A DNA stretch of 38,266 bases, taken from positions 1 to 38,266 of the forward strand of contig JAFGDN010000045.1 of NCBI GenBank assembly GCA_016932095.1, in the 5' to 3' direction. Both the position numbers and the translations under genes were made by a program. The first letter of the stretch is position 1, and every line of letters starts with the position of its first letter. Origin of the DNA: Sedimentisphaerales bacterium. GTDB lineage: Bacteria; Planctomycetota; Phycisphaerae; Sedimentisphaerales; Anaerobacaceae. Below the pieces are notes generated by a model. It saw only the letters and a program-made list of their open reading frames with translations. It was not told where the DNA came from and searched no databases. Shown one piece after another: positions 4,876 to 33,929 of the stretch.

Positions 4876-5014
4876 TGGTTTCTCCTTCAAAAGTAGACTG
4901 GTCGCGGTGTGATTATTACTATTGGTATGTTTTTTTCCTGGTTTATTTACTAAAAGTGTCATTTTTCCTTCCCCCTTGGCTATTTCGTAAAATTGGTGCA
5001 CTTTAGCTACTTAC

Positions 5015-7897: not shown

Positions 7898-8119
7898 TTA
7901 CAATCCTTCTGGCGCCGGCAGATTGATTCGGCCGGGCTTGACGCCTTTGAGACAGATGAGCATATCGGCCATCCTGTGTATTGCGCCCGCTTTATCCTTC
8001 AGGATTATCACCTCTATGTAATCGCGGCTGTCCAGGTGGACGTGCAGCGAGGAAATTGTCTGCAGGAGGAGCGAATGCTGTAAATCGGTCAGGTGTTCCA
8101 TCGACCTGTGACATATCAA
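7898..8119 (-). CDS. stand-alone NikR-like C-terminal (ACT-type) domain protein
   Basis: A 73-residue protein matching the C-terminal metal-binding half of the nickel regulator NikR but lacking the ribbon-helix-helix DNA-binding half. The TTG start at 8119 overlaps the metXW stop (TTGA), giving translational coupling; ATG 8101 is an alternative (67 residues). The NikR ligand pattern His-x10-His-x-His is kept (LQHSLLLQTISSLHVH, spacing equal to E. coli H76/H87/H89), but the ligand equivalent to Cys95 is Tyr (RDYIEVIIL). The tail RMADMLICLKGVKPGRINL follows the NikR pattern. It may be a small metal- or ligand-sensing ACT protein acting on another partner. No DNA-binding role can be supported. 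Confidence 0.7.
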   Translation of the reverse strand: MICHRSMEHLTDLQHSLLLQTISSLHVHLDSRDYIEVIILKDKAGAIHRMADMLICLKGVKPGRINLPAPEGL

Positions 8120-9903
8120 TCCTTCTTTATAACGTAAACCGCCTGCTCAGCCCGCAGGTTCGGGGCGAATTTTAACGGTCTTGTGCTGAAGGCGATTTTG
8201 CTTTCGATTCTGACTCCCAGCTTATCGCAGAACCGGTCAAAATCCTTCAGGGTGAAAAAGTGCAGGTTGGGCGAATTATACCATTCAAAAGGCAGCTGCC
8301 CCGTAACAGGGGCCTTGCCGAAAAGCGCCATTTGCAGCCGGCATCGCCAGTGAGCAAAATTAGGAAAGCTGACAATCACTTTTTTGCCGATTCGCAACAA
8401 CTCCAGCAGCGCCTTTTCAGGATTTTTCAGCGTCTGGACCGTCTGCGACAATATCACGTAATCGAAACTCTTGTCGGCGTAAAAATTTAATCCCCGTTCG
8501 ACATCCTGCTGGATAACGGGGATGCGCCGGCAGATGCAATCGAGCACGAGGTTCTGTTCAAGCTCGATGCCCTCGCCTTTTATATTTTTATCGCGTAAAA
8601 GATTAGCCAAAAGCTCCCCCTGCCCGCAGCCGACGTCCAGAACCGAGCTGTTTGAAGCTATAAGCGATTCTATGAGGCCGTAATCGACCCTTGCCCTGTG
8701 CGGCTGTTCGTCGAGGAAGCTTACGCCCCGGCTCTGCCTGGTGTAACAGGAGCAGGGTTTATTGTTTTTGGGGTCGTAAGCCGCCTTTAAAAAGCAGCAT
8801 AAAAATTGTCCAAGCGCCTCGACCTCAAGCAAAAAGGCGTCGTGTCCGTAAGGCGACGCGATATTGCAGTAACTGACGTCTTTACGGTTGGCTGCGAGCG
8901 CCTCGACAATTTCCTTTGACTGCAGGGGCGTAAAGAGCCAGTCGCTCGACAAGCTGACCACAAAAAACCTGCTTTTGACGTCGGCGAACGCCTTTTCGAG
9001 CGAGCCGTAATCCTTAACGAGGTCGAAATAGTCCGACGCCCTGGTGATATAAAGGTAACTGTTGGCGTCGAACCGTTCGGCGAAACTCTGCCCCTGATAA
9101 TCGAGATATGTCTCGACGGCGAACTCCGAGTCGAAGTCGTACATATAATTCTCGGCGCTTCGCAGTTTTCTGCCGAATTTGGCGCGCATACTTTCTTCGG
9201 AGAGGTAGGTAATATGTCCAATCATCCGGGCGATTCCGAGCCCCTCGGCGGGCTGTTTGGAATACTGCCCGGCGGCGAAATTCGGGTCTGCCAGTATGGC
9301 GTTACGACCCACTGCGTCGAATGCAATTGATTGCGCGCTTAAATGGCTTGTTGTTGCTATCGGTATCGCGGCCCTGACAAAATCGGGGTAGAGAATCGCC
9401 CATTGCAAAACCTGCATACCGCCGATGGAGCCGCCCATAACTGCCAGCAGCTTCTTTACGCCCAGTTTATCTAAAAGCAGCTTTTGCACCCTGACCATAT
9501 CGGCTACCGTAATAATAGGGAAACCAAGTCCATATGGTTTGCCGGTTTTGTGATTGAGCGACGACGGCCCCGTCGTTCCCGAGCAGCCGCCCAGGAAGTT
9601 CGAGCAAATCACAAAATATTTATTGGTATCGATGCCTTTGCCTGGACCTACCATATTGTCCCACCAGCCGGGCTTTCGGTCATTAGGGGTATGAAGGCCC
9701 GCGACGTGGGCGTTGCCGCTGAGGGCGTGGCAAATCAAAATCACATTATCCCCATTGGCATCAATTCTGCCGTATGTTTCGTATGCAACATCGATAGGCC
9801 CCAGCGACTTGCCGCATTCGAGCGTAAGCGGGTTATCTTTTTCGACCACCCTTAACGTTTGCGTTTTTACGAAACCAATCGAGTTTTCTTTCGTGTCTGT
9901 CAT
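8116..9903 (-). CDS. metXW: MetX-MetW fusion: homoserine O-acyltransferase with methyltransferase-like domain
   Basis: Bifunctional-looking protein of 595 residues for methionine synthesis. ATG 9903 is used; an in-frame TTG at 9912 also lacks a clear ribosome site. Residues 1-380 are an alpha/beta hydrolase MetX that acylates homoserine from acetyl- or succinyl-CoA: nucleophile S159 in GGSIGGMQ, D321 in SLSSDWLFTP, H354 in YGHDAFLLE. Residues 401-595 match MetW, a class I methyltransferase fold (VLDVGCGQGELL at 421-432; SFPNFAHWRCRLQMALFG). In proteobacteria metX and metW are separate neighbours; here they are one polypeptide through a Cys-rich joint (about residues 375-395). Acetyl versus succinyl preference is not decided by these motifs. 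The NikR-like gene overlaps its 3' end. Confidence 0.92.
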   Translation of the reverse strand: MTDTKENSIGFVKTQTLRVVEKDNPLTLECGKSLGPIDVAYETYGRIDANGDNVILICHALSGNAHVAGLHTPNDRKPGWWDNMVGPGKGIDTNKYFVICSNFLGGCSGTTGPSSLNHKTGKPYGLGFPIITVADMVRVQKLLLDKLGVKKLLAVMGGSIGGMQVLQWAILYPDFVRAAIPIATTSHLSAQSIAFDAVGRNAILADPNFAAGQYSKQPAEGLGIARMIGHITYLSEESMRAKFGRKLRSAENYMYDFDSEFAVETYLDYQGQSFAERFDANSYLYITRASDYFDLVKDYGSLEKAFADVKSRFFVVSLSSDWLFTPLQSKEIVEALAANRKDVSYCNIASPYGHDAFLLEVEALGQFLCCFLKAAYDPKNNKPCSCYTRQSRGVSFLDEQPHRARVDYGLIESLIASNSSVLDVGCGQGELLANLLRDKNIKGEGIELEQNLVLDCICRRIPVIQQDVERGLNFYADKSFDYVILSQTVQTLKNPEKALLELLRIGKKVIVSFPNFAHWRCRLQMALFGKAPVTGQLPFEWYNSPNLHFFTLKDFDRFCDKLGVRIESKIAFSTRPLKFAPNLRAEQAVYVIKKD

Positions 9904-10049
9904 AACCGGCAAGTATAACTAAAATTAACTTTCTGTAAATAACCATGATGAACAGACCGGTTTGAAGTTCCCTAACTGCTTGTCGTTAAAGAGGTTATGA
10001 ACTTCGGGATTGATGCGACATTTTTTTGCTGTTCCGGGCGATATTTTTC

Positions 10050-10084: not shown

Positions 10085-10367
10085 ATGTCAAGAGAAGTCA
10101 AGAAAGTGTGTAGATAGTTGGCTCCCTCGTGAGGAGGGTAAAGCCAAAAAACAGAACAGATGTTGTTGCGGTCTTTAGTTTTGTTGGACAGGCACAAGGT
10201 TATAAAAAAGGTGAAAGTCAATATAGTGCTTGTTTAGCGTGGTTTGAGACAGGCGCAACGTGGCAGGTGATCACCGCGCTTGTTGAGGGCAACGCGAATT
10301 TTGGCTTGTTGCCAAAAGAAACAAAAAGTGAAGAGAGTAATAACAACCGAAGAAGGAGGAGTTGAAT
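10085..10367 (+). other. long structured 5' leader of the PEP-CTERM gene
   Basis: About 280 bases without a convincing gene. Two hairpins can be drawn: GGCT-CCCTC-(GTGAG)-GAGGG-TAA-AGCC around 10120-10146, and TTTTGGC-(TTGTT)-GCCAAAA at 10299-10317. A 78-codon frame at 10129-10365 has no ribosome site or recognisable product. It does not match riboswitch consensus sequences I know. Confidence 0.4.
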
Positions 10368-11060
10368 ATGTGTAAAAAGTTAGTGTTTCTTGCAATGTTA
10401 GTTGCAATGGCTTCAACGGCCTGGGCGTACCCGCCAATCCCTTATTACGATGCTACCCCTGACAACACCTATATGGCAGCCGACTACGGTCCACTGGAAT
10501 ACGAGGACATCGAGTCAGCCGATGGTATTTGGCGTTTAAGAAGCGGATTTGGAATGGCTCCGACTGACACTGTGCTGCCGGCTACGCAGACAACCCAGGT
10601 TGATACCAGTATTGCGGGAACGATTCTCGAATCGACCGGCTGGGCGGACCCGCCAGATGATGTTCCTCGCCTGGTGACTATCGTTTCCGGTCTGGATGCT
10701 GGAAAGGAGTATGATGTGTATGTCTGCTTCTGGGGCGACCAGTCCGGAAGTCCGTGGCGCATTCGCGCAGGACTTACAAATGAAACGGAACTGCCGCTGT
10801 GGGTTATTGGTGATGGTGAATGGCAGGGCCCCACGACGCCCATTCAGGTTGGGCTCGACATGTCCAACCGTATTCTATATGCGGCATTAGTCGGCACCGT
10901 CACGGGCGTTGAATACATAGAGATGTTCGTAGAAGATGCACCGGCTGCGAATGGTAATGAGCGCACTTGGTATGACGGCGTCGCTTTAGATGTTCCTGAG
11001 CCGGCAACATTAGTACTGCTCGGCCTTGGCAGCTTGGCGTTACTCCGCAGGAAGAAATAA
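10368..11060 (+). CDS. PEP-CTERM sorting-signal protein
   Basis: Exported protein of 230 residues of unknown function. ATG 10368 follows AGGAGGA with a 7-base spacer. A signal peptide covers residues 1-21 (MCKKLVFLAMLVAMASTAWA). The C-terminus carries a full PEP-CTERM signal: VPEPATLVLLGLGSLALLRRKK without the first residues would not fit other tails, i.e. a PEP motif, a hydrophobic helix and a basic end. Such proteins are processed by an exosortase and anchored or released in exopolysaccharide-rich matrices (known for the family). The middle is beta-rich with few clear motifs (GKEYDVYVCFWGDQSGSPW). It is monocistronic, with its own promoter, leader and terminator. No exosortase gene is in the window. 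Confidence 0.88.
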   Translation: MCKKLVFLAMLVAMASTAWAYPPIPYYDATPDNTYMAADYGPLEYEDIESADGIWRLRSGFGMAPTDTVLPATQTTQVDTSIAGTILESTGWADPPDDVPRLVTIVSGLDAGKEYDVYVCFWGDQSGSPWRIRAGLTNETELPLWVIGDGEWQGPTTPIQVGLDMSNRILYAALVGTVTGVEYIEMFVEDAPAANGNERTWYDGVALDVPEPATLVLLGLGSLALLRRKK

Positions 11061-11328: not shown

Positions 11329-11370
11329 AAAACAATGGAAACAGGTTAAATGTTATCAGGAGAGTCACAC

Positions 11371-11820
11371 GTGCAATTAAAAAGACAAAGAAAGAGGAAA
11401 GAAAAGCGGCCCGCCTCGACTCGCTCGGCGCGAGTCGGGCCTGCGTCGTCCGGTATGACGATGATAGAAGTGATGGTAGCTGCTGTGATTCTGGTGATAG
11501 CCCTGATTGGCACATCGGCCATGTTCGTATCCGGAAGAAAACACATTATGAGCCAGCAGTTCTACCGGGCGTCGGCGCAGTTAGCCAGCCAGAAGCTCGA
11601 AGAGCTTAAGGCGACAGGGTACGACAGCGTGCCGGTAGGACAGAATGAGGAGCAGGTATCCTGGAACGGAGTGGCTTATACCAGGCAAACCGATGTGGCG
11701 CTGACGGCATCGCCGACAGCGGGAACCCCGAAACCATGCAAAAAGATTACAGTGACTATAAGCTGGTCTCTGGCTGCAGGCCAGCACGAAGCGCGACTCG
11801 TCACTTACATAGGACCTTAA
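11371..11820 (+). CDS. PilV/GspI-like prepilin
   Basis: Small pilin-type protein of 149 residues. GTG 11371 is chosen because AGGAG lies 8 bases upstream; ATG 11350 would add 7 residues without a good site. A long basic leader (about 28 residues) ends in SSGM, then the class III signal continues MTMIEVMVAAVILVIALIGTS: Gly at -1, Glu at +5 and a hydrophobic helix. The remaining 100 residues contain GYDSVPVGQNEEQVSWNG and AYTRQ, common in PilV-like minor pilins. First gene of the forward five-gene pilin operon; it stops 3 bases before the next start. Expected to be processed by a prepilin peptidase not seen here and inserted in a pilus or pseudopilus. Confidence 0.85.
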   Translation: MQLKRQRKRKEKRPASTRSARVGPASSGMTMIEVMVAAVILVIALIGTSAMFVSGRKHIMSQQFYRASAQLASQKLEELKATGYDSVPVGQNEEQVSWNGVAYTRQTDVALTASPTAGTPKPCKKITVTISWSLAAGQHEARLVTYIGP

Positions 11821-11823
11821 CTT

Positions 11824-12288
11824 ATGAAAAAGACAAATCGCACCGGATTAACAATTGTGGAGCTGATGGTTGCCGTCAGTGCCGCTTGCATTGTGGTGCT
11901 TTCCGCGGGGATAATTCTTGTCTATGGTCAGAAATCCTGGGACCAGGGACTGCGCCAGGCACATCTGCAAAGAGAAGTTTCACTGGTGATGCTACGGGTG
12001 AAGAAGTCCATAAGCGAAGGCCGGGCCGCGGTCGTCGATAATGACGGCCTGGGAGTCAAGATTTACAACAGCGCGGGATGGATACGATACCGGTATGAGG
12101 CCGGCCAGAATGACCTTGTGTATCAAATCGACGGCGAGGAGGAGCGGACGCTTCTCGACGGCATTGTGCAGGATGCGTCCTTCGACCTGGACCCTAATAC
12201 GGGCAAAATGGTATTAGTGGATATTGACCTGGAAAAGGACGGCGCTCAGGCCGGGCTTTCATCGAAGACGCTGATGCGTAATTTCTGA
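11824..12288 (+). CDS. PilW/GspJ-like prepilin
   Basis: Pilin-type protein of 154 residues with a short leader and class III signal TGLTIVELMVAVSAACIVVL (Gly -1, Glu +5). After the helix, the region with LRQAHLQREVSLVMLRVKKSI and a later YRYEAGQNDLVYQIDGEEERTLLDGI resembles PilW/GspJ minor pilins. ATG 11824 lies 3 bases after the preceding stop. It shares the operon with the three large pilin-like genes and is probably part of the same initiation complex (inference). A normal-sized minor pilin, slightly short for PilW. Confidence 0.85.
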   Translation: MKKTNRTGLTIVELMVAVSAACIVVLSAGIILVYGQKSWDQGLRQAHLQREVSLVMLRVKKSISEGRAAVVDNDGLGVKIYNSAGWIRYRYEAGQNDLVYQIDGEEERTLLDGIVQDASFDLDPNTGKMVLVDIDLEKDGAQAGLSSKTLMRNF

Positions 12289-12306
12289 ATGTAAAGGAGG
12301 GGTAAA

Positions 12307-13827
12307 ATGTTTACACGACCGAGGGGAATAGTTCTACCGATGGTGATTGCCTTCACTGCCATTCTTACTATTGTTGGTTTTGCGCTGCTGACGCTGGCCG
12401 AGCAGGAAATAATCCAGACGCGGATTGAGGCCGACAAGAACAAGGCGTTTTATTACGCCGAGGCGGGGATAGCCAGATTGAGCGAAAAGCTCGAAAAGCC
12501 CGTTGTCGGCGGATTGCCCGAATCCTTTAATGAAACGGTAGGACAGGGCGATTACCGCGTCGTAGTGGATGAGAACGACGGCGCCTGCTACGCGATTTCA
12601 ACGGGCGTGTCGGGCGTTGTTCAAAAGAAAATTCGGGTGCGGCTGTCTTTTCTGGCGGCGCCGTTCGAGAACGCCGTCTTTGCGATGAATAAAGGCGGCG
12701 GAAACTGGGCGTTTCAGCTAAGAGGCACGGGTAATCCCGTCGCCGCCCCGGGCAGGGAAAGGGGTGGTCGCGACGTTGTCAACGGTAATATCTTCGTCGA
12801 TGGAGACGCTTACCTGTACGAGCGAAGCGCCGTCAACCCGGCGCCTGCCCCGAATTCATACGAGCTTTACGGGGACGTGGGGGCTACGGGAAGCGTTTCG
12901 CTGTTTAACGACGCCACCGTGTCGGGAGCCATTAATCAGCATTCTGAACCGCCTCCTCCGGTGGATATTCTCGCGATGGACTACGAGCATCACAATACTC
13001 ACAACGTTTCTATGATATTCCAGAGCGCCGGCATCGGCTCGGGATATTTGCCCGCCGGAAATCAACTGAGGAATATATTCGTAAAAAATCCTGCCGACAG
13101 GGCTGCCGAGTGCAGCGCCACTTCCGGCGATGATTATTTCCTCGAACCGAGCAGTATAACGGGCGGTGCGGGCAGCGAAAAAGACGCGAAAACGCCCCTT
13201 GACCTGGGCGCTGACAGGGTCTATTACGTTGACGGAGACGTCTGGATTCACAACAAAATCACGTACGGTTTTAACGTTACAGGCAGGGTAACAATCGTGG
13301 CGACCGGCAATATTCATATCTGCGACAATACGAAATACGCCAACACAAACAGCTTGCTGGGCCTGGTGGCGTTAGGCAAATACGATAATTCAGGCAATCT
13401 AACCAGCGGCGGCAATATCTTCTTCGGCGATCCGCGATACGGGACGATGTTCCAGGTTGCGGGCTTGATGTTCGCGGCCAATGATTTCCTGTTCAATACC
13501 GATGTTATCAGCCGCCAGACGGCAGAACCAACGTCGGGATTTGTCGTCAACGGCAGTTTTGCCGCGATGAACAAGGTTTCAGTCGAACGCGACTGGTACA
13601 CCAAAGGCAGTGAAGCAAGGCCGGCCAGCTATGACCACGCTTCAGGTCAATGGATGGATTCGGTGACGAGAACGGCGTTATCTTCGGCGGAAGCCGGAAC
13701 GCTGCGGCATTATCAAATGGTTGTCAATTATGACGACAGGGTCCGAAGCCCGGAAACCCAGCCGCCGGGGCTGCCTCGCGGAATGGGAAGTATTTTCACA
13801 GGGTTCTCACACTGGGAAGAATTATAG
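12307..13827 (+). CDS. giant PilX/GspK-like pilin-type protein, copy 1
   Basis: Protein of 506 residues with a pilin-like N-terminus: basic MFTRPRG, then GIVLPMVIAFTAILTIVGFALLTLA, lacking Glu at +5 as in PilX and GspK. YYAEAGIARL follows, a PilX hallmark. Start ATG 12307 has AGGAGGGG upstream. The large C-terminal part (about 110-506) is beta-rich and conserved in all three copies: AVFAMN, AFQLRGTGN, NIFVDGDAYLYE, DDYFLEPS, RVYYVDGDVWIHN, GRVTIVATGNIHICDN, FAAMNKVSVERDWYTKG and a final PPGLPRGMGSIFTGFSHWEEL. Regular hydrophobic DG-rich strands suggest a beta-helix or similar. Copy 1 is the most divergent. Probably displayed at the tip or along a pseudopilus; function unknown. Confidence 0.8.
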   Translation: MFTRPRGIVLPMVIAFTAILTIVGFALLTLAEQEIIQTRIEADKNKAFYYAEAGIARLSEKLEKPVVGGLPESFNETVGQGDYRVVVDENDGACYAISTGVSGVVQKKIRVRLSFLAAPFENAVFAMNKGGGNWAFQLRGTGNPVAAPGRERGGRDVVNGNIFVDGDAYLYERSAVNPAPAPNSYELYGDVGATGSVSLFNDATVSGAINQHSEPPPPVDILAMDYEHHNTHNVSMIFQSAGIGSGYLPAGNQLRNIFVKNPADRAAECSATSGDDYFLEPSSITGGAGSEKDAKTPLDLGADRVYYVDGDVWIHNKITYGFNVTGRVTIVATGNIHICDNTKYANTNSLLGLVALGKYDNSGNLTSGGNIFFGDPRYGTMFQVAGLMFAANDFLFNTDVISRQTAEPTSGFVVNGSFAAMNKVSVERDWYTKGSEARPASYDHASGQWMDSVTRTALSSAEAGTLRHYQMVVNYDDRVRSPETQPPGLPRGMGSIFTGFSHWEEL

Positions 13828-13836
13828 GAGGATGTT

Positions 13837-15387
13837 ATGAGTTTGAATGACAAAATGTTCGGAAGGCAAAAGGGAATAGCCCTTCCCCTTGTTATAGCGT
13901 TCGCCTTCATCCTTGCAATCGTGGGAATTGGCTTATTAACGCTCGCCCAGCATGAAATACTTCAGACCCGCATCGAAACGGACAAGACAAGGGCTTTTTA
14001 TTACGCCGAATCCGGGCTGGCCAAACTTCAGGAAATATTTCAAAAACCGGTTATTTTAAGTGAGCTGGGTTCTGAAATATCAGGGTCAATAGAAGGGGGG
14101 AGTTATCGGGTCCTGCTCGATTTCGACCAGGTCCCCTGTTATGCATTTTCAATCGGCACATCCGGCTCGGTCCAGAAGCGTATCCGTGTCCAGGCGTATT
14201 TCCTTGCTCCGCCTTTCGAGAACGCCGTCTTTGCGATGAACAACACCGGCAATCCATATGCCTTTCAGCTCAGGGGAACGGGAAATGCCGTCCCGTATGG
14301 GTCGGTTCCCGGCGCCGAAAGAGGCGGCGCAGACAAAATATACGGCAATATCTTTGTGGATGGCGATGCTTACCTTTACGAGCAAAGCTCCATCAATCCG
14401 GCCCCAGCGCCGAATCCCTGGGGTCTTAACGGGGACCTCGGGGCGACTGGTACGGTTTCTCTCTTTGGCAGCGCCTCTGTATCGGGAACGATTAGTCAGA
14501 ACGCCGAGGAGCCGGACGCGTGGGACTTGCTATCGATGGATTACGCCAATAATAACACTCATAATGTTGGTCAGATATTTCAGTCGGCCGGCGTCTCTTC
14601 CGGCTACTTGCCTGTAGGTAATGCACTGAGGGACGTCTTTGTGAAAAATCCGGGCGACAGGTCCGCCGAATGTGCCACCACGACCGGCGACGATTACTTC
14701 TTCGAGCCGTCCACCGGCTTTGTAACCGGAGGCCCCAAGAGCGGGGATACGCCTCTTAACGCAGGCCAGAACAGGGTATATTACGTCGATGGCGACGTTT
14801 GGATTGAAAGCAATCCGACATACGGCTTCAATATGGAAGGAAGGGCGACAATTGTTGCTACCGGCAACATCCATATTTGCGACAACCTTCAATATAAAGA
14901 CGCCAACAGCTTACTGGGTATGATTGCTTTGGGTAAGTATGACGGCTCAGGTAATCTTGTCAGCGGGGGCAGCATTTATTTCGGCGACCCTGTTTACGGG
15001 AATATGGCTGTCTTTTCGGCGATTATGTATGCCGCCAAGGACTTCCTTTTCAATACCGACCGTATTACCAATAGACCTGCCGAACCTGATTCCGGATTTA
15101 TAATGACCGGCAGTTTCGCGGCAATGAACCAGGTCTCGATTGAACGGGACTGGTACACTAAGACAATCGGCACGCCAAAACCGGCCCGTTATAATACTTC
15201 GACCAGCACCTGGGTTGACGCAGAGACGGGAACGGTCCTGACCTCAACACAGATTAGCACTTTGAGGCATTATCAAATGGTTGTTAATTATGACGACAGG
15301 GTTCGAGACCAGGATACCCAGCCGCCCGGACTTCCCCGCGGGGGAATGAGTATTTTCGCCGGCTTTTCAAACTGGGAAGAAATTTGA
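13837..15387 (+). CDS. giant PilX/GspK-like pilin-type protein, copy 2
   Basis: Protein of 516 residues, paralogue of its neighbours. ATG 13837 follows AGGAGG, 9 bases after the preceding stop. The N-terminus SLNDKMFGRQKGIALPLVIAFAFILAIVGI... has Gly -1 and no Glu at +5, and YYAESGLAKLQEI follows. The C-terminal region keeps every conserved block (DGDAYLYEQS, GDDYFFEPSTGFVTGG, RVYYVDGDVWIES, ATIVATGNIHICDN, GGSIYFGDPVYGNM, ERDWYTK) and the WEEI terminus. By eye it is much closer to copy 3 than to copy 1. The nearly identical intergenic junctions before copies 2 and 3 point to tandem duplication of a gene-plus-ribosome-site unit. Confidence 0.8.
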   Translation: MSLNDKMFGRQKGIALPLVIAFAFILAIVGIGLLTLAQHEILQTRIETDKTRAFYYAESGLAKLQEIFQKPVILSELGSEISGSIEGGSYRVLLDFDQVPCYAFSIGTSGSVQKRIRVQAYFLAPPFENAVFAMNNTGNPYAFQLRGTGNAVPYGSVPGAERGGADKIYGNIFVDGDAYLYEQSSINPAPAPNPWGLNGDLGATGTVSLFGSASVSGTISQNAEEPDAWDLLSMDYANNNTHNVGQIFQSAGVSSGYLPVGNALRDVFVKNPGDRSAECATTTGDDYFFEPSTGFVTGGPKSGDTPLNAGQNRVYYVDGDVWIESNPTYGFNMEGRATIVATGNIHICDNLQYKDANSLLGMIALGKYDGSGNLVSGGSIYFGDPVYGNMAVFSAIMYAAKDFLFNTDRITNRPAEPDSGFIMTGSFAAMNQVSIERDWYTKTIGTPKPARYNTSTSTWVDAETGTVLTSTQISTLRHYQMVVNYDDRVRDQDTQPPGLPRGGMSIFAGFSNWEEI

Positions 15388-15396
15388 GAGGATGTT

Positions 15397-16971
15397 ATGA
15401 GTTTGTTAAATGACAAAATGTTCAGAAGACAAAAGGGAATAGCCCTTCCCCTTGTTATAGCGTTCGCCCTCATCCTTGCAATCGTGGGATTTGCATTATT
15501 AACGCTGGCTCATCAGGAAATCGTTCAAACCAAAATCGAAACAAAAAAGATGCAGGCCTTTTATTACGCCGAAGCGGGGCTTGCAAAGCTCCAGGAAATA
15601 CTCCAGAAGCCCGTCGTGTTAGGCGACCTTGACGATGTCATAACAGGGTCAATAGACGAAGGCAGCTACAGGATAGACCTCGATTTCGACCAGGTGCCCT
15701 GCTATGCTATCGCGACCGGCATTTCCGGCTCGGTCCAGAAACGAATCCGGGTTCAGGCATATTTCCTTGCTCCGACTTTCGAAAACGCCGTCTTTGCGAT
15801 GAACAATACCGGCAATCCATATGCCTTTCAGCTAAGGGGCACTGGCAACCCTGTCCCGTATGGAATGGTGCCGGGCGCCGAAAGGGGAGGCGCGGATAAA
15901 ATATACGGCGACATCTTTATTGACGGGGACGCATACCTTTACGAGGAAAGCTCCATAAATCCGCCTCCTGCACCGAACACATGGGAACTTGCAGGAGACC
16001 TCGGGGCGACCGGAAACGTTACGCTGTATGGCAGTTCCTCTGTTTCGGGAACTATCAGCACTAACGCCGAAGAACCTCCCGCCTGGGACATCGTATCAAT
16101 GGATTATCCCAATAATAACACTCATAATGTCAGTCAGTTATTTGCATCGGCCGGTGTTTCTTCGGGGCATCTGCCGAGCGGCCACGAGTTAAGAGACGTT
16201 TTTGTGAAAAATCCGAGCGACAGGGCGACCGAATGTGCTACCACTACCGGTGACGACTATTTCTTCGAGCCGTCCACTGGCTTTGTTACAGGAGGACCAT
16301 ATACGGGCGACACTCCTCTAAATGCCGGCCAGGACAGGATTTATTACGTCGATGGCGACGTCTGGGTCGAGAGCAATCCGACATACGGCTTCAAGATGGA
16401 AGGAAAGGCGACAATCGTAGCTACCGGCGACGTCCATATATGTGATAATCTTCAGTATAAAGACAACAGCAGCTTGCTTGGTTTAATAGCTCTCGGCAAA
16501 TACGACAGCAGCGGAAACCTCATAAGCGGGGGCAGCATTTATTTCGGTGACCCTGTTTACGGGAATATGTCGGTCTTTTCGGCGATGATGTACGCGGCAA
16601 AGGACTTCTTGTTCAATGTCGATCGCATAACTTATAAACCAGCCGAGCCCGACTCCGGATTTACGATTACCGGCAGCTTCGCGGCTATGAACCAGGTCTC
16701 GATTACCCGTGACTGGTACACCAAGACAGTCGGCACCTGGCCGTACGTATCAAATACTCCCAAGCCAGCCCGGTATAATACTACGTCCAACCTATGGGTT
16801 GACGCGGAAACGGGGGCGGCCCTGACAACAACGCAAAAGTCCACGCTGCGGCATTATCAGATGATTGTGAATTATGACGACCGTGTTCGAAACCAGGAGA
16901 CCCAGCCGCCCGGCCTTCCCCGTGGGGGTACGAGTATTTTCGCCGGGTTCTCTGATTGGGAAGAGCTTTAA
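15397..16971 (+). CDS. giant PilX/GspK-like pilin-type protein, copy 3
   Basis: Protein of 524 residues. ATG 15397 follows GAGAGG, 9 bases after the preceding stop. Pilin-like N-terminus RRQKGIALPLVIAFALILAIVGFALLTLA, then YYAEAGLAKLQEI. Blocks match copy 2 closely, with an 8-residue insertion near residue 448 (GTWPYVSNTPKPARY against GTPKPARY). It ends PPGLPRGGTSIFAGFSDWEEL. Last gene of the forward operon, 37 bp from the end of the convergent T2SS operon. No clear terminator hairpin is seen in that short gap. Role as for the sister copies: a large exposed domain on a pilin-type stalk (inference). Confidence 0.8.
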   Translation: MSLLNDKMFRRQKGIALPLVIAFALILAIVGFALLTLAHQEIVQTKIETKKMQAFYYAEAGLAKLQEILQKPVVLGDLDDVITGSIDEGSYRIDLDFDQVPCYAIATGISGSVQKRIRVQAYFLAPTFENAVFAMNNTGNPYAFQLRGTGNPVPYGMVPGAERGGADKIYGDIFIDGDAYLYEESSINPPPAPNTWELAGDLGATGNVTLYGSSSVSGTISTNAEEPPAWDIVSMDYPNNNTHNVSQLFASAGVSSGHLPSGHELRDVFVKNPSDRATECATTTGDDYFFEPSTGFVTGGPYTGDTPLNAGQDRIYYVDGDVWVESNPTYGFKMEGKATIVATGDVHICDNLQYKDNSSLLGLIALGKYDSSGNLISGGSIYFGDPVYGNMSVFSAMMYAAKDFLFNVDRITYKPAEPDSGFTITGSFAAMNQVSITRDWYTKTVGTWPYVSNTPKPARYNTTSNLWVDAETGAALTTTQKSTLRHYQMIVNYDDRVRNQETQPPGLPRGGTSIFAGFSDWEEL

Positions 16972-17008: not shown

Positions 17009-17509
17009 TCAGTAAACATATTTGAAGGTGAATTCCACGTCCCAGGAATCCGGCAGGCCTTTTTGCTTTTTCAGATGAATCTTTGTGCACTGCAGGCCGG
17101 ACCAGCGAAGTTGTATAATTGACAGGAATCTCGCGGCTGTTGTTATGTCAACGGTCTTGAGCGATACGTTGGCCGACTGGCTTTTTTGGCCGCCCGATGT
17201 AACAATTATCCCCGAGGACAGTCGGTAGCTGCCGGACGGGACCGAACAGAACTCAGCGGCCTGCTGCACGGCCGTCGCGTAGTCGAAGTTGGCCGAAGCC
17301 CCTTTTTCTTCGTTGAAATTCAGCCGGTCGGGGTCGGCCTTTAGAAGTTCGGTAATGACATCCTGCGCCTTCTGGTACTGCTCTTTATCGTTATTGAAGC
17401 TGCTTCGGGCCCCGGGAAGGAAGACACCCCATGTAAGCGCCGGGAAGACGACCGCGACGACGGGAATAAGTATATAGTAGAAAAACGGATTTTTATGAAT
17501 ATCCTTCAT
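17009..17509 (-). CDS. gspM: GspM/PilO-like T2SS inner-membrane protein
   Basis: Protein of 166 residues with a short cytoplasmic N-terminus, one membrane helix (FFYYILIPVVAVVFPALTWG, about 8-27), and a periplasmic part with a coiled coil (SFNNDKEQYQKAQDVITELLK) leading to a ferredoxin-like fold (VSLKTVDITTAARFLSIIQLR). This is the layout of GspM and PilO, which pair with GspL/PilN in the assembly platform. ATG 17509 is used; a TTG at 17527 would add six residues. Assigned as GspM mainly from its place at the end of the T2SS operon after GspL; PilO is equally compatible by sequence. Confidence 0.75.
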   Translation of the reverse strand: MKDIHKNPFFYYILIPVVAVVFPALTWGVFLPGARSSFNNDKEQYQKAQDVITELLKADPDRLNFNEEKGASANFDYATAVQQAAEFCSVPSGSYRLSSGIIVTSGGQKSQSANVSLKTVDITTAARFLSIIQLRWSGLQCTKIHLKKQKGLPDSWDVEFTFKYVY

Positions 17510-17526
17510 ATCAGTCCACAAGAGCA

Positions 17527-17598
17527 AGAGTCACAAGAGCACAAGTCATAAGTCATAAGTAACTTGTGTTCTTTTGCACTTGTGCACTTGTGCTCTTT
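17527..17598. repeat. CACAAGTCATAAGT-type imperfect inverted repeat, copy A
   Basis: AGAGCACAAGT near 17538-17548 pairs with ACTTGTGCTCT near 17583-17594, enclosing two tandem CATAAGT units and further CACTTGTG units. A T-tract follows on the plus strand. It lies between gspL and gspM. A related element occurs at 32412-32479 in the opposite orientation. Confidence 0.7.
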
Positions 17599-17600
17599 TT

Positions 17601-19085
17601 TCATTTTTTGGGCTCCGCTGTTACATGAAAAGTGCTTCGGCCCGCTTCAAAGGCGACCCTCTGCTGGAGAATGTCGAGATTGGCCTGCCGCAGGGCCTCG
17701 AACACTTTGAGCGTGTTGTCGGAGCTGGAGGTGTCGCCGGTTATCGTGATTGATTTATCGGTTATGTTTACGGAGTCGATATGAAGCGATGTTTGCTCAG
17801 CACATTTATTGAATGCGTCGAGCGCCAGCGAAAGTTTGCCGGTTATTATATCCTGGCCCGTAAGGGATACCGCCCCTTTTTGCGTGTCCCTGATGCGGCT
17901 CAGGGCCGTCTTGATGCGTCTCAGTGCTTCGCTTGACTGCCATTTCGCCTGAATTTTCTCGCCGAACATAACCTTTGAGTATTCTTCGGAGAATTTTCCC
18001 CGCAGCCGGACGCGGTATTTGTTATATGCGACTCCCTGCATAAAGCCATAGAGACCCAGGGCAAGCATAAGCAACGTCACGGCTACGCTGAGATATTTCA
18101 ATGTGTTCTGAAGCCGCAGTTTCCTGCCCTGATACGGCATAAAGTCGGTTCGCCAGCTTACACTGCCGGGCGGGTCTGTGCAGGCGAGCGCCGCGCCGCA
18201 GGCGATTGACAATTCGACCAGGTCCAGACACCCGGCTATAGTTTCAGGGGGAAGCCCGTCTGATTGTTCAAGATTGATTTGCTCCAAACGTAAGGCCGTT
18301 TTGCCGCCGATTTCCGTTAGGTTGACCGAATGGGCCGCGTCGAATATTTCGAGGCAGTTGACCGGTTGCGCGGTCCTGAGAAGGGCGGTGGTCATAGAGA
18401 CCTGCCTTGCGAGAAGCTGCGCTCTGTTTTGTGCCGGGTGAATCAGGAAAGTCCGCATCGCGGCGGGTGGCATAGGTTTAACTTGCTGCCAGGGCGAGGC
18501 TAGGGGAGCAATGAAGTAGCCGTTTCGACCGGATAAAAACGCGATAAGCGGGCGTGTGTCTGCGGCAAAAGAGACCTTTTGGCATACGAATCTTGCCAGG
18601 CAATTCACGTCCGGCTCAACGCTGAGGGGGTCGAGGTTGTTCGCCTGCAGGGCAGTCAAAATCTCGCTGAAAGATTGCTTTGGCGTTGTGAAGACGCTCA
18701 GGTTCGACCCCGACTGGTCGGCGGAATCAATCCTGAAGGCGATGGCGACGTCCGTCGCGTCTGCACCGAGGGCTTCTTCCGTATCGAAGCGGACCGTCTG
18801 GGTGATTTTTTTGATGTCGGGAAATTCGCTTCTGACCGAGTGCTGCATAAACATTGAGCAGTCAAGCGCTACGGCGGCTTCGGTGAACTTCCACTGCCTC
18901 TCGGCAAGAGCGCCTGTGATGCGCCGGGCCAGTTCGTCGAATTCGCCCGTTTTGTCGGAACCGGCCTGCTCTAGCGACACGCTGAAGCAGCCGGCGAGCG
19001 AGCTTGCGGCGCCATCGACGGCTATGTACGCCGCGGTGGCGTGGTCTTTTGCCAGGTATATACCTAAAAAATTACTCAGTTGCAC
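17601..19085 (-). CDS. gspL: GspL-like (PilM-PilN fused) T2SS platform protein
   Basis: Protein of 494 residues linking the GspE ATPase to the membrane platform. GTG 19085 is chosen because AAGGAGAGG lies just upstream and an earlier in-frame TTG (19130) overlaps gspK. Residues 1-315 are a PilM/GspL-type actin-like cytoplasmic domain (SNFLGIYLAKDHATAAYIAVDG at the N-terminus; FDTEEALGADATDVAIAF). One membrane helix is at about 330-348 (LSVAVTLLMLALGLYGFMQG), followed by a periplasmic coiled coil and a ferredoxin-like domain ending FHVTAEPKK. This is the GspL architecture. Its place between gspK and gspM agrees. Confidence 0.85.
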   Translation of the reverse strand: MQLSNFLGIYLAKDHATAAYIAVDGAASSLAGCFSVSLEQAGSDKTGEFDELARRITGALAERQWKFTEAAVALDCSMFMQHSVRSEFPDIKKITQTVRFDTEEALGADATDVAIAFRIDSADQSGSNLSVFTTPKQSFSEILTALQANNLDPLSVEPDVNCLARFVCQKVSFAADTRPLIAFLSGRNGYFIAPLASPWQQVKPMPPAAMRTFLIHPAQNRAQLLARQVSMTTALLRTAQPVNCLEIFDAAHSVNLTEIGGKTALRLEQINLEQSDGLPPETIAGCLDLVELSIACGAALACTDPPGSVSWRTDFMPYQGRKLRLQNTLKYLSVAVTLLMLALGLYGFMQGVAYNKYRVRLRGKFSEEYSKVMFGEKIQAKWQSSEALRRIKTALSRIRDTQKGAVSLTGQDIITGKLSLALDAFNKCAEQTSLHIDSVNITDKSITITGDTSSSDNTLKVFEALRQANLDILQQRVAFEAGRSTFHVTAEPKK

Positions 19086-19116
19086 TTTCCGACCTCTCCT
19101 TATTTCTTTGTTCTGT

Positions 19117-20556
19117 TTATCCGCTGACAACAGCGATTTTATCGATTTTGCCTGCCTCTTTGAATACGACGATTACAGCCGAGGCCTTTGCCGCGCCGCA
19201 GGTTGCCGTTACGTGAATCGAAAATACGTTACTGGTCGTGGTGATATAAGGTGTGCTTTTCTCGATTGATATCGAAAAAGCCAGTATGTCCTTTCTCAGG
19301 TCGTCTATACTGGCGAAGGGTTTTTCTCTTCTTCTCTTTATGATTTCCGACGCGACGCGTTCGGCGTCGCCGCCGAACACGAACGCCGATTCCAGCACCT
19401 GTCTGGTCGCCGTATTGATATTAACCTGGGTTGTGCCCCACATACTCATATATTTCAGGGCCGATTCTGTGCGGTCCTCGCTTTCGATAGTAGGCCTGGC
19501 CAATGAATCGGTGTCTATCAGCGAGCTGTGTAAGAGGCGGGAAAAGTCCCTGGCCTGAACTGCCATTTGTTCGGCCGGCGTAACGACGATAGTCTTGACG
19601 GTGTAACGCGGTCGTCTTCTGCCTCGCCTGCCGGCCGTGGGGGTAAGTGGAGTGTTCGTTCTTTTGCTTATTGGTTTGAAGTCAACCTGGAATTTTTTTA
19701 TAGAGCCGATTTCTTCGAGCTGCCATTTGAGGGCTTCGATTTCTTCAGGTTTAAGCCCCATCCATTCACAGAAGGTATCGAGGCCGGCCTGGGCCTCGCG
19801 TTTGACTCTTTCATCGCCGAGGACGCCCCAGCCGACGGGGTATTTTGCGTTTTCGTCTTCGATTTCAATCTTAACTTTTACGTCGCCTATTTCAAGCTCG
19901 ACCGGCTCGGTAACCAAAGGCCAGGGCGGCCCATAGGGTCCGCGAATCGTCAGTCCTTCGATGATATTCGGCTCGGCGGCGTTCGGCTCAGCGGTGTTCG
20001 GCTCGTTTATGTCGTTCGCCTCATTGAAATCAAACAGCGACCTGTGACTGCCGTAAAAGTTTACGTCCGCGAATCGTCGATTGAAGTCCGCTTTATTTGA
20101 GTCATCGTCATCTTCATCTTCATTTATATCTTCGCCGAATATATCGTTGCTTTCGTTTGGCTTCTCATCCGCGTCATCGCCGAAAAAATCACTCGCCCAG
20201 TCGGTCTGGTCTTGTGATTCTAATTGTCGTTTCTTAATATCTTTGGCCCAGTTGCGGAGGATTTCATGGAATTCCTCCTCGGTCTTTGAAAAGAGGTCTG
20301 AAAAATCCGGCTCGTTAGGCCGGTCGATGAGCATAACGTTGTTGAGGTCCTGCAGGGTGGTGAGCGCATATTTAATCGCCGAATCGCGGGCGTAGCAGGC
20401 GGCGGTGTAATCAATGATGAAGCCGTCCCGGTGGCGCTGTGCTGCGACCCTGTTGGCAAGCTGGTAGCCCAGCGCCGCCAGGACAAGCAGCACCACCATA
20501 GTCAACAGGAGCACTGCTCCGCGTTCTTCTTTCATTGTTGTTCGTTTATAGTTCAT
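19117..20556 (-). CDS. gspK: GspK-like minor pseudopilin
   Basis: Protein of 479 residues, longer than the usual 320 or so. ATG 20556 overlaps the gspJ end by 11 bases; ATG 20535 is an alternative. Signal EERGAVLLLTMVVLLVLAALGYQLA has Gly -1 and no Glu +5, as in GspK, which caps the pseudopilus tip. An Asp/Glu/Asn-rich insert at about residues 108-159 and a repeated EPNTAEPNAAEPN (185-197) are extra. The C-terminal part has the helix-hairpin-helix VNINTATRQVLESAF... FASIDDLRK typical of GspK. It ends in a ferredoxin-like segment. Calcium binding by the acidic insert is possible but unproven. Confidence 0.88.
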   Translation of the reverse strand: MNYKRTTMKEERGAVLLLTMVVLLVLAALGYQLANRVAAQRHRDGFIIDYTAACYARDSAIKYALTTLQDLNNVMLIDRPNEPDFSDLFSKTEEEFHEILRNWAKDIKKRQLESQDQTDWASDFFGDDADEKPNESNDIFGEDINEDEDDDDSNKADFNRRFADVNFYGSHRSLFDFNEANDINEPNTAEPNAAEPNIIEGLTIRGPYGPPWPLVTEPVELEIGDVKVKIEIEDENAKYPVGWGVLGDERVKREAQAGLDTFCEWMGLKPEEIEALKWQLEEIGSIKKFQVDFKPISKRTNTPLTPTAGRRGRRRPRYTVKTIVVTPAEQMAVQARDFSRLLHSSLIDTDSLARPTIESEDRTESALKYMSMWGTTQVNINTATRQVLESAFVFGGDAERVASEIIKRRREKPFASIDDLRKDILAFSISIEKSTPYITTTSNVFSIHVTATCGAAKASAVIVVFKEAGKIDKIAVVSG

Positions 20557-21385
20557 TTTCATTCCATCTGACCGGGCGCGAAGGCGGCTGCGAAAAATCG
20601 CCGGTTTTTTCGTTCGGGTCTTTGCTGCTGGGAATGGAATTTGCGTCCAGGTTATTCGTATCAATCTCGTTAATATCAAGCGGGGGCGGAATCGTAAACG
20701 TCGGCTTTTGCGTCCTGTCGATGGCGATTGTCCGGTCGATTATATGTTCTGCGAGCACCTCCATACGGCCATCTTCGGTCTTAAGCGGCTCGGCAAGCGA
20801 CAACGACACTATTATCGCCGGGGGAAGATTCTCGTCCGTCCATTTTTCGATTACCGTATTAACGTCGGGAACAACAACGCTGAAAAACGTTAATCCCGTG
20901 TAAATCGGCACAAAAAGCTCACGTTGCCAGGGTTCTTTCTGCGAGTCCAGCAGATTGTCTTCCAGCGCTTTTCCGGAGTGGCTGCGGTACAGGGTCAATC
21001 CCGGCGGGCCGATGCCTTCCGGCTCGATGCCGCTTTGCCAAACGACTCTTTCCAGTATCTCGGGCTGACCCTTGGCGTTAAGAATCTGTTTGGTAATCTC
21101 CAGCCGGGCGCCGGCGTAACCTTTCTGCAGTTTATTCTCGATGCTTATTCGAACTTCCTGCCCGAAGCTTGCGAGTCGGTCGATGTCCTCGCTGATTCGC
21201 TGCAGGATTTCACGGGGAATCCGGTTCTTTTCGAGCCGGTCACGGACAACGGCCGCGCCCATTTGCGCCCGGCTGTAAATGGCGAGCACGACAACCAGGA
21301 CCATTGTCCCGATGGTTAGCGCTGCCAGCGTCTCAGTGAGAGTAAAGCCGGGTGCGTATGAACATTTTTTGTTTGAACAGCTCAT
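20546..21385 (-). CDS. gspJ: GspJ-like minor pseudopilin
   Basis: Protein of 279 residues. ATG 21385 starts one base after the gspI stop; no strong ribosome site, so coupling is likely. Signal SYAPGFTLTETLAALTIGTMVLVVVLA has Gly -1 and Glu +5. The body contains REILQRISEDIDRL, a GspJ-like helix, and LFVPIYTGLTFF. The last 60 residues are Pro/Asp/Asn-rich (IPPPLDINEIDTNNLDANSI) and probably disordered. GspJ pairs with GspI and GspK in the tip complex (known). Confidence 0.85.
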   Translation of the reverse strand: MSCSNKKCSYAPGFTLTETLAALTIGTMVLVVVLAIYSRAQMGAAVVRDRLEKNRIPREILQRISEDIDRLASFGQEVRISIENKLQKGYAGARLEITKQILNAKGQPEILERVVWQSGIEPEGIGPPGLTLYRSHSGKALEDNLLDSQKEPWQRELFVPIYTGLTFFSVVVPDVNTVIEKWTDENLPPAIIVSLSLAEPLKTEDGRMEVLAEHIIDRTIAIDRTQKPTFTIPPPLDINEIDTNNLDANSIPSSKDPNEKTGDFSQPPSRPVRWNENEL

Positions 21386-21386
21386 A

Positions 21387-22247
21387 TCAATTTGAAGGCA
21401 TTGGGGGCGGCCCAAGCGGTTGTTGCCCCGAATCCGTCTCGGCCGGCGGCGTCGAATCCGGTGATGTTTCTTCGCTTCCGGGCGGCGGAGGCGGCGATTC
21501 CATCATCTGAGATTCTTCGCGTTTGGATTTGGCCAGCTCCGGGTATCGTTTTATGAGTTCCAGTTTTTGACCGTCGGTGGGCTCTCCGTCGTTGGCGCCG
21601 TAAAGCTTCAGCCACGGCTTAATATACATCCCCTCGAAAGTGGGCATATCGTTTCGGACCCACTCGCGGATTGTCTCGACGTTGACGCCCGCGTATTCGG
21701 CCGCCAGTTCCTCGGTTTCGATTATATGGTTGGCAAGCAGGTCCGCCTGCTGCTGTTTGTTTTCCATCAGCATCCGCATTTGGTCATCGCTGAGGTCCGT
21801 CAGCCAGTAGGTGAGCGAAACCGATTGTGTCTGACCCTCGGCGTCCGTATATTCGGCGCTTGATATGGCCTGAACCCACATCCGCCCGGCGTGCATTTCG
21901 TAGAAACTCTCGATGGTCGTCTGCCAGCGAATGTCGGGGAACATCTCGCTTACGCCGAATTCCGTATTTTCCTCGACGGTGTCCAGGCCGACGATATTTT
22001 CCATATTTTCCCGCGCGATTTCGAAGGCCCTGTTTCGCTGTGCGGTATCGGCGGCCAGAACCATACAACGTTCCAGCGCTATCCAGACGCTTACACTGAT
22101 GAAAGTAAGCAGTGCAATGGCCGCCATCGCCTCGATAAGCGTAAAACCGGGGGAAAGACAATGCAGAGCCGAGAACGGAAGAATATCTCCTGCCTTCCGT
22201 CTTCTGTCTTCTGTCCTCTGCCCTCTGTTTTCAGAACGCCAGTTCAT
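21387..22247 (-). CDS. gspI: GspI-like minor pseudopilin
   Basis: Protein of 286 residues, much longer than the usual 120-130. ATG 22247 has AGGAG 5 bases upstream and overlaps gspH by 17 bases. A 33-residue leader contains SENRGQRTEDRRRKAGD, encoded by a purine-rich tract, followed by the signal SPGFTLIEAMAAIALLTFISVSVW (Gly -1, Glu +5). The mid region has ENMENIVGLDTVEEN and WVQAISSAEY, GspI-like. The C-terminal 120 residues are an added coiled, Gln/Met-rich and Pro-rich extension (MENKQQQADLLANHIIETEE; PPPPPGSEETSPDSTPP) not normal for GspI. Confidence 0.85.
   Translation of the reverse strand: MNWRSENRGQRTEDRRRKAGDILPFSALHCLSPGFTLIEAMAAIALLTFISVSVWIALERCMVLAADTAQRNRAFEIARENMENIVGLDTVEENTEFGVSEMFPDIRWQTTIESFYEMHAGRMWVQAISSAEYTDAEGQTQSVSLTYWLTDLSDDQMRMLMENKQQQADLLANHIIETEELAAEYAGVNVETIREWVRNDMPTFEGMYIKPWLKLYGANDGEPTDGQKLELIKRYPELAKSKREESQMMESPPPPPGSEETSPDSTPPAETDSGQQPLGPPPMPSN
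22191..22232 (-). repeat. purine-rich GAGGACAGAAGAC tract in the gspI leader
   Basis: Minus strand reads AAACAGAGGGCAGAGGACAG then AAGACAGAAGACGGAAGGCA, tandem-like imperfect units in the pre-cleavage leader. A similar tract lies in gspD (28911-28941) and a weaker one in the gspH leader (about 22761-22780). Confidence 0.65.
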
Positions 22248-22860
22248 CTGCACTCCTCGGCCAGGCAATTTGCGCCTCGCCTGTTTCGAGCCGGACGATA
22301 TTGCTGAGGCGGTCTATGATAACAGACCAGGGCTGCTCATCGGCGTCTAAAAGCACGATTATGCCGCCGAACTGCCAGCCAGACCGACTTGCGCGAAACT
22401 TCGCCCTGTCTTCGTTTGTAAATTCGCCGTCATCGAACAGAACGTATGAAATCCGGCACTGCTCGCCGAAATCCTCCTGCGCGATGATTTCCTCTTCGAG
22501 CACCTCCGAAAGCTTCGGCGTGGTGATTTCGCGCAGTATGTAGCTTTGTTGCGGTATATCGATTATGACTTCGTATCTTTTGCCGGTCTGGGCCGCCGAC
22601 GTTGACGCCGCTTCGAGGGCTGATATGAGACCCTGTGACTTGGCCCTGAAGGAATTTCTGGTTAAGACGCCGTTGAAGGTCGCGGCGCCCAGCGTCACAA
22701 GCAGCGAGATAATTACGATTACGACCATAGATTCTGCAAGCGTAAAAGCAAAGCACAAAGGACGGGAGACCGAAGACAGGTTACGGTGAACGGCTGCGCA
22801 ACGCATAAACGAATTACGCAACCTGTATAACAACGTTCTTTTGATTATCAGGTCTGTCAT
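22231..22860 (-). CDS. gspH: GspH-like minor pseudopilin
   Basis: Protein of 209 residues. ATG 22860 lies 10 bases after the gspG stop. A 38-residue leader precedes the class III signal CFAFTLAESMVVIVIISLLVTLGAA with Glu +5, but the residue before Phe is Ala rather than Gly. The body has SALEAASTSAAQTGKRYEVIID, close to GspH/FimT. GspH links the GspI-J-K tip to the GspG fibre (known). The unusual leader length could mean the true start is ATG 22806 (MRCAAVHRN), but that has no better ribosome site. Confidence 0.82.
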   Translation of the reverse strand: MTDLIIKRTLLYRLRNSFMRCAAVHRNLSSVSRPLCFAFTLAESMVVIVIISLLVTLGAATFNGVLTRNSFRAKSQGLISALEAASTSAAQTGKRYEVIIDIPQQSYILREITTPKLSEVLEEEIIAQEDFGEQCRISYVLFDDGEFTNEDRAKFRASRSGWQFGGIIVLLDADEQPWSVIIDRLSNIVRLETGEAQIAWPRSADELAF

Positions 22861-22870
22861 CCGTTCTCTG

Positions 22871-23332
22871 TTAATTGGCGTCCGTGCTGTAAAGGTCTGT
22901 GTCGTAGCCCTCGCCGCCTTCCTTGCCGTCGGCGCCGTAGCTGATGATTACGAATGGCTTTCCGCTTTCCGGGTATAACTGGTAAACGTATTCGTTTTTC
23001 CATGCGTCCAAGGGCACTTCGGTGGTGTCGAGGTAGCCGCCCTCCGCCCAGCCGGTAACGTCCGTGGGCTGCTCTATAAGCTCCTCTAATCCGGCGTCCT
23101 CGGTCGGGTATCGGCCCGTGTCGAGCTTGAATTGAATGACGGCGCTATGAAGCGTCTTGAGAACGGCCTTTGTGGTGGCGCTTCGGGCCTTGTCGGTGTA
23201 GCCGACGACATTTACCGCGACTATGCCGGCCAAAATGCCGATTATCACAATAACCGCCATAACCTCGATTATGGTAAACGCCGAACGACGGTGGTTCCTT
23301 TCTGGTTTTCCGGTTTTTTGATTGATTTTCAT
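22871..23332 (-). CDS. gspG: GspG major pseudopilin
   Basis: Protein of 153 residues, the normal GspG size, forming the pseudopilus fibre. ATG 23332 has GGAGG 5 bases upstream. Leader MKINQKTGKPERNHRRSA ends in Ala at -1 and is followed by FTIIEVMAVIVIIGILAGIVAVNVV with Glu +5. Core landmarks: LDTGRYPTEDAGLEELI, GGYLDTTEVPLDAWKNEYVYQLYP and the calcium-site region YGADGKEGGEGYDTDLYS, as in known GspG. Ala at -1 instead of the usual Gly is noted, as in gspH. Confidence 0.95.
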   Translation of the reverse strand: MKINQKTGKPERNHRRSAFTIIEVMAVIVIIGILAGIVAVNVVGYTDKARSATTKAVLKTLHSAVIQFKLDTGRYPTEDAGLEELIEQPTDVTGWAEGGYLDTTEVPLDAWKNEYVYQLYPESGKPFVIISYGADGKEGGEGYDTDLYSTDAN

Positions 23333-23349
23333 ATTTGCCTCCATTGTTT

Positions 23350-24567: not shown

Positions 24568-24592
24568 AATCGCCTTTTTCCTGGTTCTTTCT

Positions 24593-26296: not shown

Positions 26297-26478
26297 TTGT
26301 GATTCACGGGCACCATTTTACCACTTTGGACTGGCCACTAAAAGCAACTGTTCTCATCACCCAGACCACAGGTTGCGCATTCAACGCCGATTTACGATTG
26401 ACGCAACCGATACGAGCCGCGCAACCGCGACCGTTTAACGTTTCCGCGTTCTCGGCGGTGAACAAATCCAATATCCGG

Positions 26479-29643: not shown

Positions 29644-29973
29644 CACCTGATTCCTTCATCATACAATAAAAATTGTGCCCATTGCCCTGTGGTTTGAGCC
29701 GTTTTGCGAAGGTTTGATTGTAAGCAAAGATTACCCATAGTAAATAAGACAAGGAAGTCATTGGAAGGTTCCCCTGAGGACAGAAAACAATCGAGGGAAA
29801 AAGCTACCGGGCTTCTTTTTAAGACGCCTATGAGTCCTATAATACCACTCTTTTAGCCACAAGAAAGAGGTTTCAGCGACTTTTTGTATTTTAGTTGAAA
29901 AAACGGCTAATTCAGATTTAATTGAAAAGGCAAGTTTCTATAACAGCTCCTTAAAACGCTCGACGAATTAAAT
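29644..29973. other. 330-bp gspC-gspD intergenic region
   Basis: A/T-rich, no gene or terminator hairpin. On the minus strand a TATTAT element (29844-29839) might be a -10 box of a secretin promoter, but the -35 is poor (TTTCTT). No other structure found. Confidence 0.3.
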
Positions 29974-31032: not shown

Positions 31033-31083
31033 ATATCTATTATTTTGACAATCCGCGGCTAAGGGGGTTCCCTGGTATAGATT

Positions 31084-32496: not shown

Positions 32497-32532
32497 ATAC
32501 GCAATATCCCTTACGCGAGGCGTTAACGACCT

Positions 32533-33600: not shown

Positions 33601-33929
33601 TTTTCCGTCTCCCAACTTAAAATGTAACTAATGTTAAACTCGACCTTATGGTACTATTAAACCATTCATAATAATAAAACAATACGGTTTTAGCAAGCAC
33701 TTTTCGAGGGTTTCAGGGTTGCCGAAATATAAGATTTTCCCACCTGAGTTATCTAAAGCGGCATACGTATTTCCAAATTTGCACAACAAGGTTTTTTAGG
33801 ACGTAGAATAAAAAATAGCCGATATATTAGGTTATTCAGGGCGACAGTCGCCTTACCTGGCTTTACAGCCGTTTTTTTAACTGTTACCATACTATACAGT
33901 TACGAAACTAAATATGTTCGGAGCAGATT
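33601..33929. promoter_or_regulatory. 329-bp divergent intergenic region
   Basis: A/T-rich, no gene. Minus-strand candidate promoter for the DUF1573 operon: TTGTTT (33682-33677), 16 bases, TAATAG (33660-33655). Toward the glycan operon an inverted repeat TAACTGT-N11-ACAGTTA lies at 33878-33902, 27 bases before ATG 33930, and a tight palindrome GGCGACAGTCGCC at 33840-33852. Confidence 0.35.

Follow-up and report, generated by a model that had tools for sequence, protein, structure and literature searches.

A five-gene block at positions 11350-16971 (plus strand) was identified as probably a detached cassette of minor pilins (the tip complex) for the type IV pilus (T4P) machine encoded on contig C43 of the same genome. 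The window, meaning the whole 38,266-nucleotide stretch of DNA analyzed, is the entire contig C72 of a 2.95-Mb assembly in 94 contigs, and its closest named relative among the collected genomes was a Phycisphaerae MAG. The cassette order was pilV-pilW-pilX1-pilX2-pilX3, with one pilV and one pilW, and the PilX proteins most likely act as large modules shown at the tip of a type IV pilus, either stacked or as alternatives to one another. The relevant features of the window are as follows.

10362..11060, plus strand: PEP-CTERM gene (PEP-CTERM, 30.3 bits), left flank of the empty site, outside the cassette
11350..11820, plus strand: pilV-like minor pilin (I-like, Glu5 present), opening the cassette
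11824..12288, plus strand: pilW-like minor pilin (J-like, Glu5 present)
12307..13827, plus strand: pilX1, 506 aa, K-like minor pilin lacking Glu5 and bearing a large C-terminal module
13837..15387, plus strand: pilX2, 516 aa, 82% identity to pilX3
15397..16971, plus strand: pilX3, 524 aa, 82% identity to pilX2
17009..17527, minus strand: gspM, which ends the convergent T2SS operon and flanks the empty site on the right
19117..20679, minus strand: GspK of the T2SS operon (T2SSK, 28.0 bits, above the 24.2 cut-off)

Organization and duplication of the pilX genes

The initial annotation had described three neighboring pilin-type genes of 506, 516, and 524 residues, and these open reading frames were confirmed, but it missed the start of the operon, where the two Glu5-bearing minor pilins are encoded. 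The pilV-like product matched N_methyl above the cut-off (22.3 bits) and TIGR02523 PilV under it (E=1.7e-7), and it shared 37 to 38% identity with the PilV proteins of T4P slots in two relatives (L028 and L029). The pilW-like product scored 14.9 bits with N_methyl, under the cut-off, and was 29 to 35% identical to PilW of the same two loci.

Each PilX protein began with a short basic leader and a Gly, followed by a hydrophobic helix that lacked the +5 Glu, giving a class-III-like N terminus. The N termini followed the pattern G|I-(V/A)-L-P-(M/L), occurring as RGIVLPM in PilX1 and KGIALPL in both PilX2 and PilX3. The reported YYAEAG, DGDVWI, ATGNIHICDN, and GDPVYGNM motifs were also recovered, with small differences between copies: YYAE(A/S)G was common to all three (YYAESG in copy 2), ATGDVHICDN and DGDVWV occurred in copy 3, and GDPRYGTM occurred in copy 1. 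Adjacent pilX genes were separated by 9 bp, and the junctions 5' of copies 2 and 3 were nearly identical (..GAGGATGTTATGAGTTTG..).

PilX2 and PilX3 were the closest pair, PilX1 being about 63 to 64% identical to PilX2 and about 61% identical to PilX3. In the protein tree, all three copies grouped together (99/98), with PilX2 joined to PilX3 (100/99), beside single genes of other genera. The proposed tandem duplication is borne out, and the tree places the triplication of pilX in the host lineage. The dN/dS ratio between X2 and X3 was about 0.12; the copies therefore look functional, and the trio is under purifying selection. Taken with the clade support and the single-copy orthologs of other genera (44 to 58% identity to the trio), this ratio sets the trio far above chance. 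When PilX3 was compared with the G017 ortholog, alignment columns 300 to 420 of the C-terminal module were the most conserved (76 to 83% identity) and the N-terminal helix was the least conserved (32%), a pattern that does not look like that of a rapidly diversifying adhesin.

Assignment to the PilX family

Judged from sequence and gene order, the trio are PilX-type (tip-capping, K-like) minor pilins that close a V-W-X cassette. PilX1 matched PilX_N (PF14341) with 20.6 bits (E=4.5e-4), under the curated cut-off of 25.5, copies 2 and 3 being unlisted, while the L008 ortholog of the trio passed it with 26.3 bits. A match of PilX1 to DUF7305 (E=0.16) was also under the cut-off. The trio follows pilV and pilW in the window, and its orthologs come after pilV and pilW within T4P clusters.

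The earlier label, GspK/PilX, therefore stood in its PilX half only. The trio resembles the GspK of type II secretion systems (T2SS) in lacking Glu5 and in occupying a K-like position behind I- and J-like genes, but GspK has an alpha-helical insert and a T2SSK domain, and a Pfam profile search found no match to T2SSK (PF03934) in any of the three proteins. The minus strand at 17009-29646 carries a T2SS operon comprising D, E, F, G, pilin-like genes, GspK, L, and M, in which the names H, I, J, L, and M rest on position and weak matches. Identity of the trio with GspK was ruled out, since this operon encodes its own GspK with a T2SSK domain. The trio lies on the strand opposite to the operon, and the T2SS is present without the trio in congeners. 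Together with the placement of the orthologs, these results led us to reject both the GspK label and the T2SS link; the former would have tied the trio to the wrong secretion system.

Orthologs in type IV pilus clusters and the variable bay

At E<=1e-15, only 4 of the 397 genomes searched in the class carried the trio family, the host genome counted. Further carriers were one more member of the host family, G009, and one MAG labelled Verrucomicrobia; no relatives were found among viral contigs. G017 (L008), G238 (L028), and G202 (L029) each had a single ortholog within a T4P cluster, with the order pilB, pilC, pilA, pilV, pilW, pilX, pilM, pilN, pilO, and a ParA-like gene. PilP-like and secretin genes followed the ParA-like gene in L008 and L028 (L029 was covered up to the ParA-like gene), and the L029 slot also held a second, different V-W-X set. 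The order in L009 was pilB, pilC, pilA, pilM, pilN, pilO, pilP, pilV, pilW, pilX. The initial annotation had anticipated recurrence beside T2SS clusters in related genomes; instead, the orthologs sat in these T4P clusters.

As a separate observation, a ParA-like ATPase gene lay between pilO and the PilP-like/secretin genes in most T4P clusters of the host family, as in the following loci.

L008, 10861-11706: ParA-like ATPase gene
L028, 12605-13414: ParA-like ATPase gene
L045, 12207-13598: ParA-like ATPase gene

Across about 20 relatives, the pilA-pilM slot was a variable bay holding pilV, pilW, and one to four PilX-type genes, with PilX sizes of about 380 to 450, 510 to 525, or 560 to 610 aa. 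Two or more PilX genes were present in 9 of 19 occupied slots, by a heuristic classification in which some slots end at contig ends. The orthologous T4P cluster of the host genome was located on contig C43 (L045), where the 552 bp between the second pilA and pilM contained no pilV, pilW, or pilX. Three congeners had the same machine with the slot likewise empty (458 to 1037 bp).

The site occupied by the cassette in the window was itself empty in congeners. In G001 and G003, the PEP-CTERM gene directly adjoined gspM. The 3' end of the PEP-CTERM gene aligned with G001 to G003 at the DNA level, and the gspM product shared 62 to 68% identity with those of G002 and G003. The aligned DNA blocks on either side, at the PEP-CTERM end and gspM, were spaced 163 bp apart in G003 versus 5956 bp in the window; the cassette thus occupies a clean empty site. 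With both the C43 slot and the congener site empty, the cassette is physically separated from the machine it probably serves, with pilX triplicated. It may have been transferred from another genus, or it may have moved within the lineage and been lost in congeners.

Three or more additional orphan V-W-X cassettes, with PilX of the 570- to 610-aa type, were present in the host genome on C5 (with a putative pilV reading frame), C81, and C27. Each congener had one orphan V-W-X cassette of this type, located, like the C5 copy, beside a polyprenyl-synthetase-like gene (named from sequence appearance). The congeners keep the machine with a different type of PilX only, so the cassette of the window is dispensable for persistence of the machine, a point against its assignment to C43. 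Tentatively, this lineage may have uncoupled tip genes from the machine and kept relocatable V-W-X cassettes, allowing one machine to bear different tips.

The C-terminal module

In hhalign comparisons, the N-terminal residues (about 115) of the trio matched those of other T4P-slot PilX types with 97 to 98% probability. The C-terminal module was common to the window type and the 560- to 610-aa type (96%), with reversed and shuffled controls reaching at most 2.2%. Against the C-terminal module of the DUF7305-type PilX of about 400 aa, the probability was <7%, and a common origin of the two modules is therefore not claimed. That shorter type combined DUF7305 (E=4e-26) with an ice-binding-like adhesive domain; the literature searched held no mention of DUF7305. 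A search for internal repeats in the module by hhalign gave nothing convincing, its two high scores stemming from overlapping segments.

When a profile of the trio was compared with the PDB, the best match was ComZ, a marginal hit (E=0.013) confined to residues 40 to 71. AF2 models from five-sequence alignments had mean pLDDT values of 37.8 and 45.1, which are of low confidence. ComZ of Thermus thermophilus (PDB 6QVI) is a large minor pilin whose extra domain, of about 380 residues, is a beta-solenoid that, it was argued, can be accommodated nowhere but at the pilus tip (PMC6561018). The trio shares the pilin-like N-terminal module, with a leader and helix as in pilins. In ComZ, however, the solenoid is inserted in the pilin sheet, whereas the extra module of the trio seems to come after the pilin module. 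ComZ also works beside one partner, PilA2, in contrast to the pilV, pilW, and three tandem pilX genes of the cassette. On this faint match, the C-terminal module may conceivably be a ComZ-like beta-solenoid.

Proposed role and alternatives

In known type IV filaments, a subunit without Glu5 caps the minor-pilin tip complex (PMC10191384). By analogy, PilV and PilW (I- and J-like, with Glu5) would form a priming complex with PilX, and PilX (K-like, without Glu5) would cap the filament and carry its beta-rich module of about 400 residues outward. All three types would be processed by the prepilin peptidase, whose gene is on contig C84, and then assembled by the C43 machine. The two pilX duplications in the lineage would have given three alternative or co-assembled tips, whose C-terminal modules would bind some surface or polymer. 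We infer all four elements of this scheme, namely tip location, processing, C43 assembly, and C-terminal binding. Because the genome has other T4P/T2SS-like clusters on C66 and C55 and an ATPase on C48, C43 was inferred as the partner machine from gene-order orthology. Against this pairing, the cassette adjoins the T2SS and lies away from the pilus cluster. On C66, the separate T4P/T2SS-like cluster was also seen to encode an 828-aa protein with a pilin-like N terminus (RRAVTIMELVIAMA; L046, 8450-10936).

That neighborhood raises the alternative that the T2SS uses the trio as accessory pseudopilins, which would form extra or substrate-specific pseudopilus tips. The end of pilX3 is separated by 38 bp from gspM, which is encoded on the other strand, and T4P and T2SS HIJK sets can be interchangeable for piliation (reviewed in PMC10191384). 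However, the two gene sets are convergent, with no co-transcription, and the T2SS already includes pilin-like genes at positions H, I, and J in addition to GspK. It also occurs without the cassette in congeners (GspL was found in 7 of 7 genomes searched, three of them congeners), and the orthologs of the trio lie within T4P clusters, making a pseudopilus role very unlikely. The large exposed tip domains proposed initially are most plausible at the tip of a filament, and not on a T2SS pseudopilus. Nor is it likely, though slightly less remote, that the trio serve as DNA receptors of a competence pilus as in Thermus: the large tip pilin ComZ binds DNA (PMC6561018) and is the best structural profile match, but that match is marginal and limited to the helix region, and the ligand evidence concerns ComZ itself only.

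A tip cassette of the C43 pilus can also be read in two ways as to the three copies. They might be built jointly into one tip, stacked or hetero-oligomeric, and not replace one another. Purifying selection maintains all three within one operon, which has just one pilV and one pilW, and tandem PilX genes occupy about half of the filled slots of relatives as classified heuristically. Set against this are the known model of a single Glu5-less cap subunit (PMC10191384), when all three PilX proteins lack Glu5, and the status of X2 and X3 as recent, similar duplicates. The data fit alternative tips as well, and co-assembly is less likely than not.

Comparison with known systems

A related arrangement is that of Myxococcus xanthus, in which three minor-pilin/PilY1 clusters serve one machine and are thought to give differing tip properties (PMC7541494). 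Clusters 1 to 3 there are likewise dispersed PilV, PilW, and PilX (PF14341) sets with one inferred major pilin and machine, but each adds FimU and PilY1, neither of which was seen in the host cassettes, and each has one pilX where the window cassette has three. A search with the PilY1 profile (PF05567) gave no match, but the control genomes were equally silent, so this result carries no weight. Grafted modules are widespread among minor pilins (PMC8179133). In the Gram-positive Streptococcus sanguinis, PilB and PilC are modular pilins; known modules such as vWA and lectin are absent from the trio. Large pilin tips, modular minor pilins, and several clusters per machine are therefore known, and the variant here is that the tip genes are separated and tripled. 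No paper combining Planctomycetes, type IV pili, and PilX was present in the literature searched, and the findings carry the concept of modular pilins into a phylum that has received little study. With a conserved machine whose minor-pilin slot is empty and no fewer than four tip cassettes scattered over its genome, the host offers a testable case of tip swapping.

Other features of the window

Over the window, Rfam detected only a tRNA. Upstream of the PEP-CTERM gene, a stretch about 280 bp long at 10106-10384 (plus strand) had about 70% DNA identity in three congeners (L026, L027, and L033), although the proteins downstream of it were poorly conserved. It had no Rfam match at E<=0.5 and is a possible regulatory leader. 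Adjoining the T2SS secretin, the minus strand at 29974-33615 encoded a multiheme cytochrome-like protein, a DUF1573 protein, and a 352-aa protein without a Pfam match. A 598-aa open reading frame at 8116-9912 (minus strand) fused alpha/beta hydrolase and MetW methyltransferase domains in a MetX-MetW-like arrangement. At 3793-5001 (minus strand), a glycosyl hydrolase family 11 (xylanase family) domain was combined with a CBM60 xylan-binding module, and this protein, encoded near the T2SS, is a candidate secreted enzyme.
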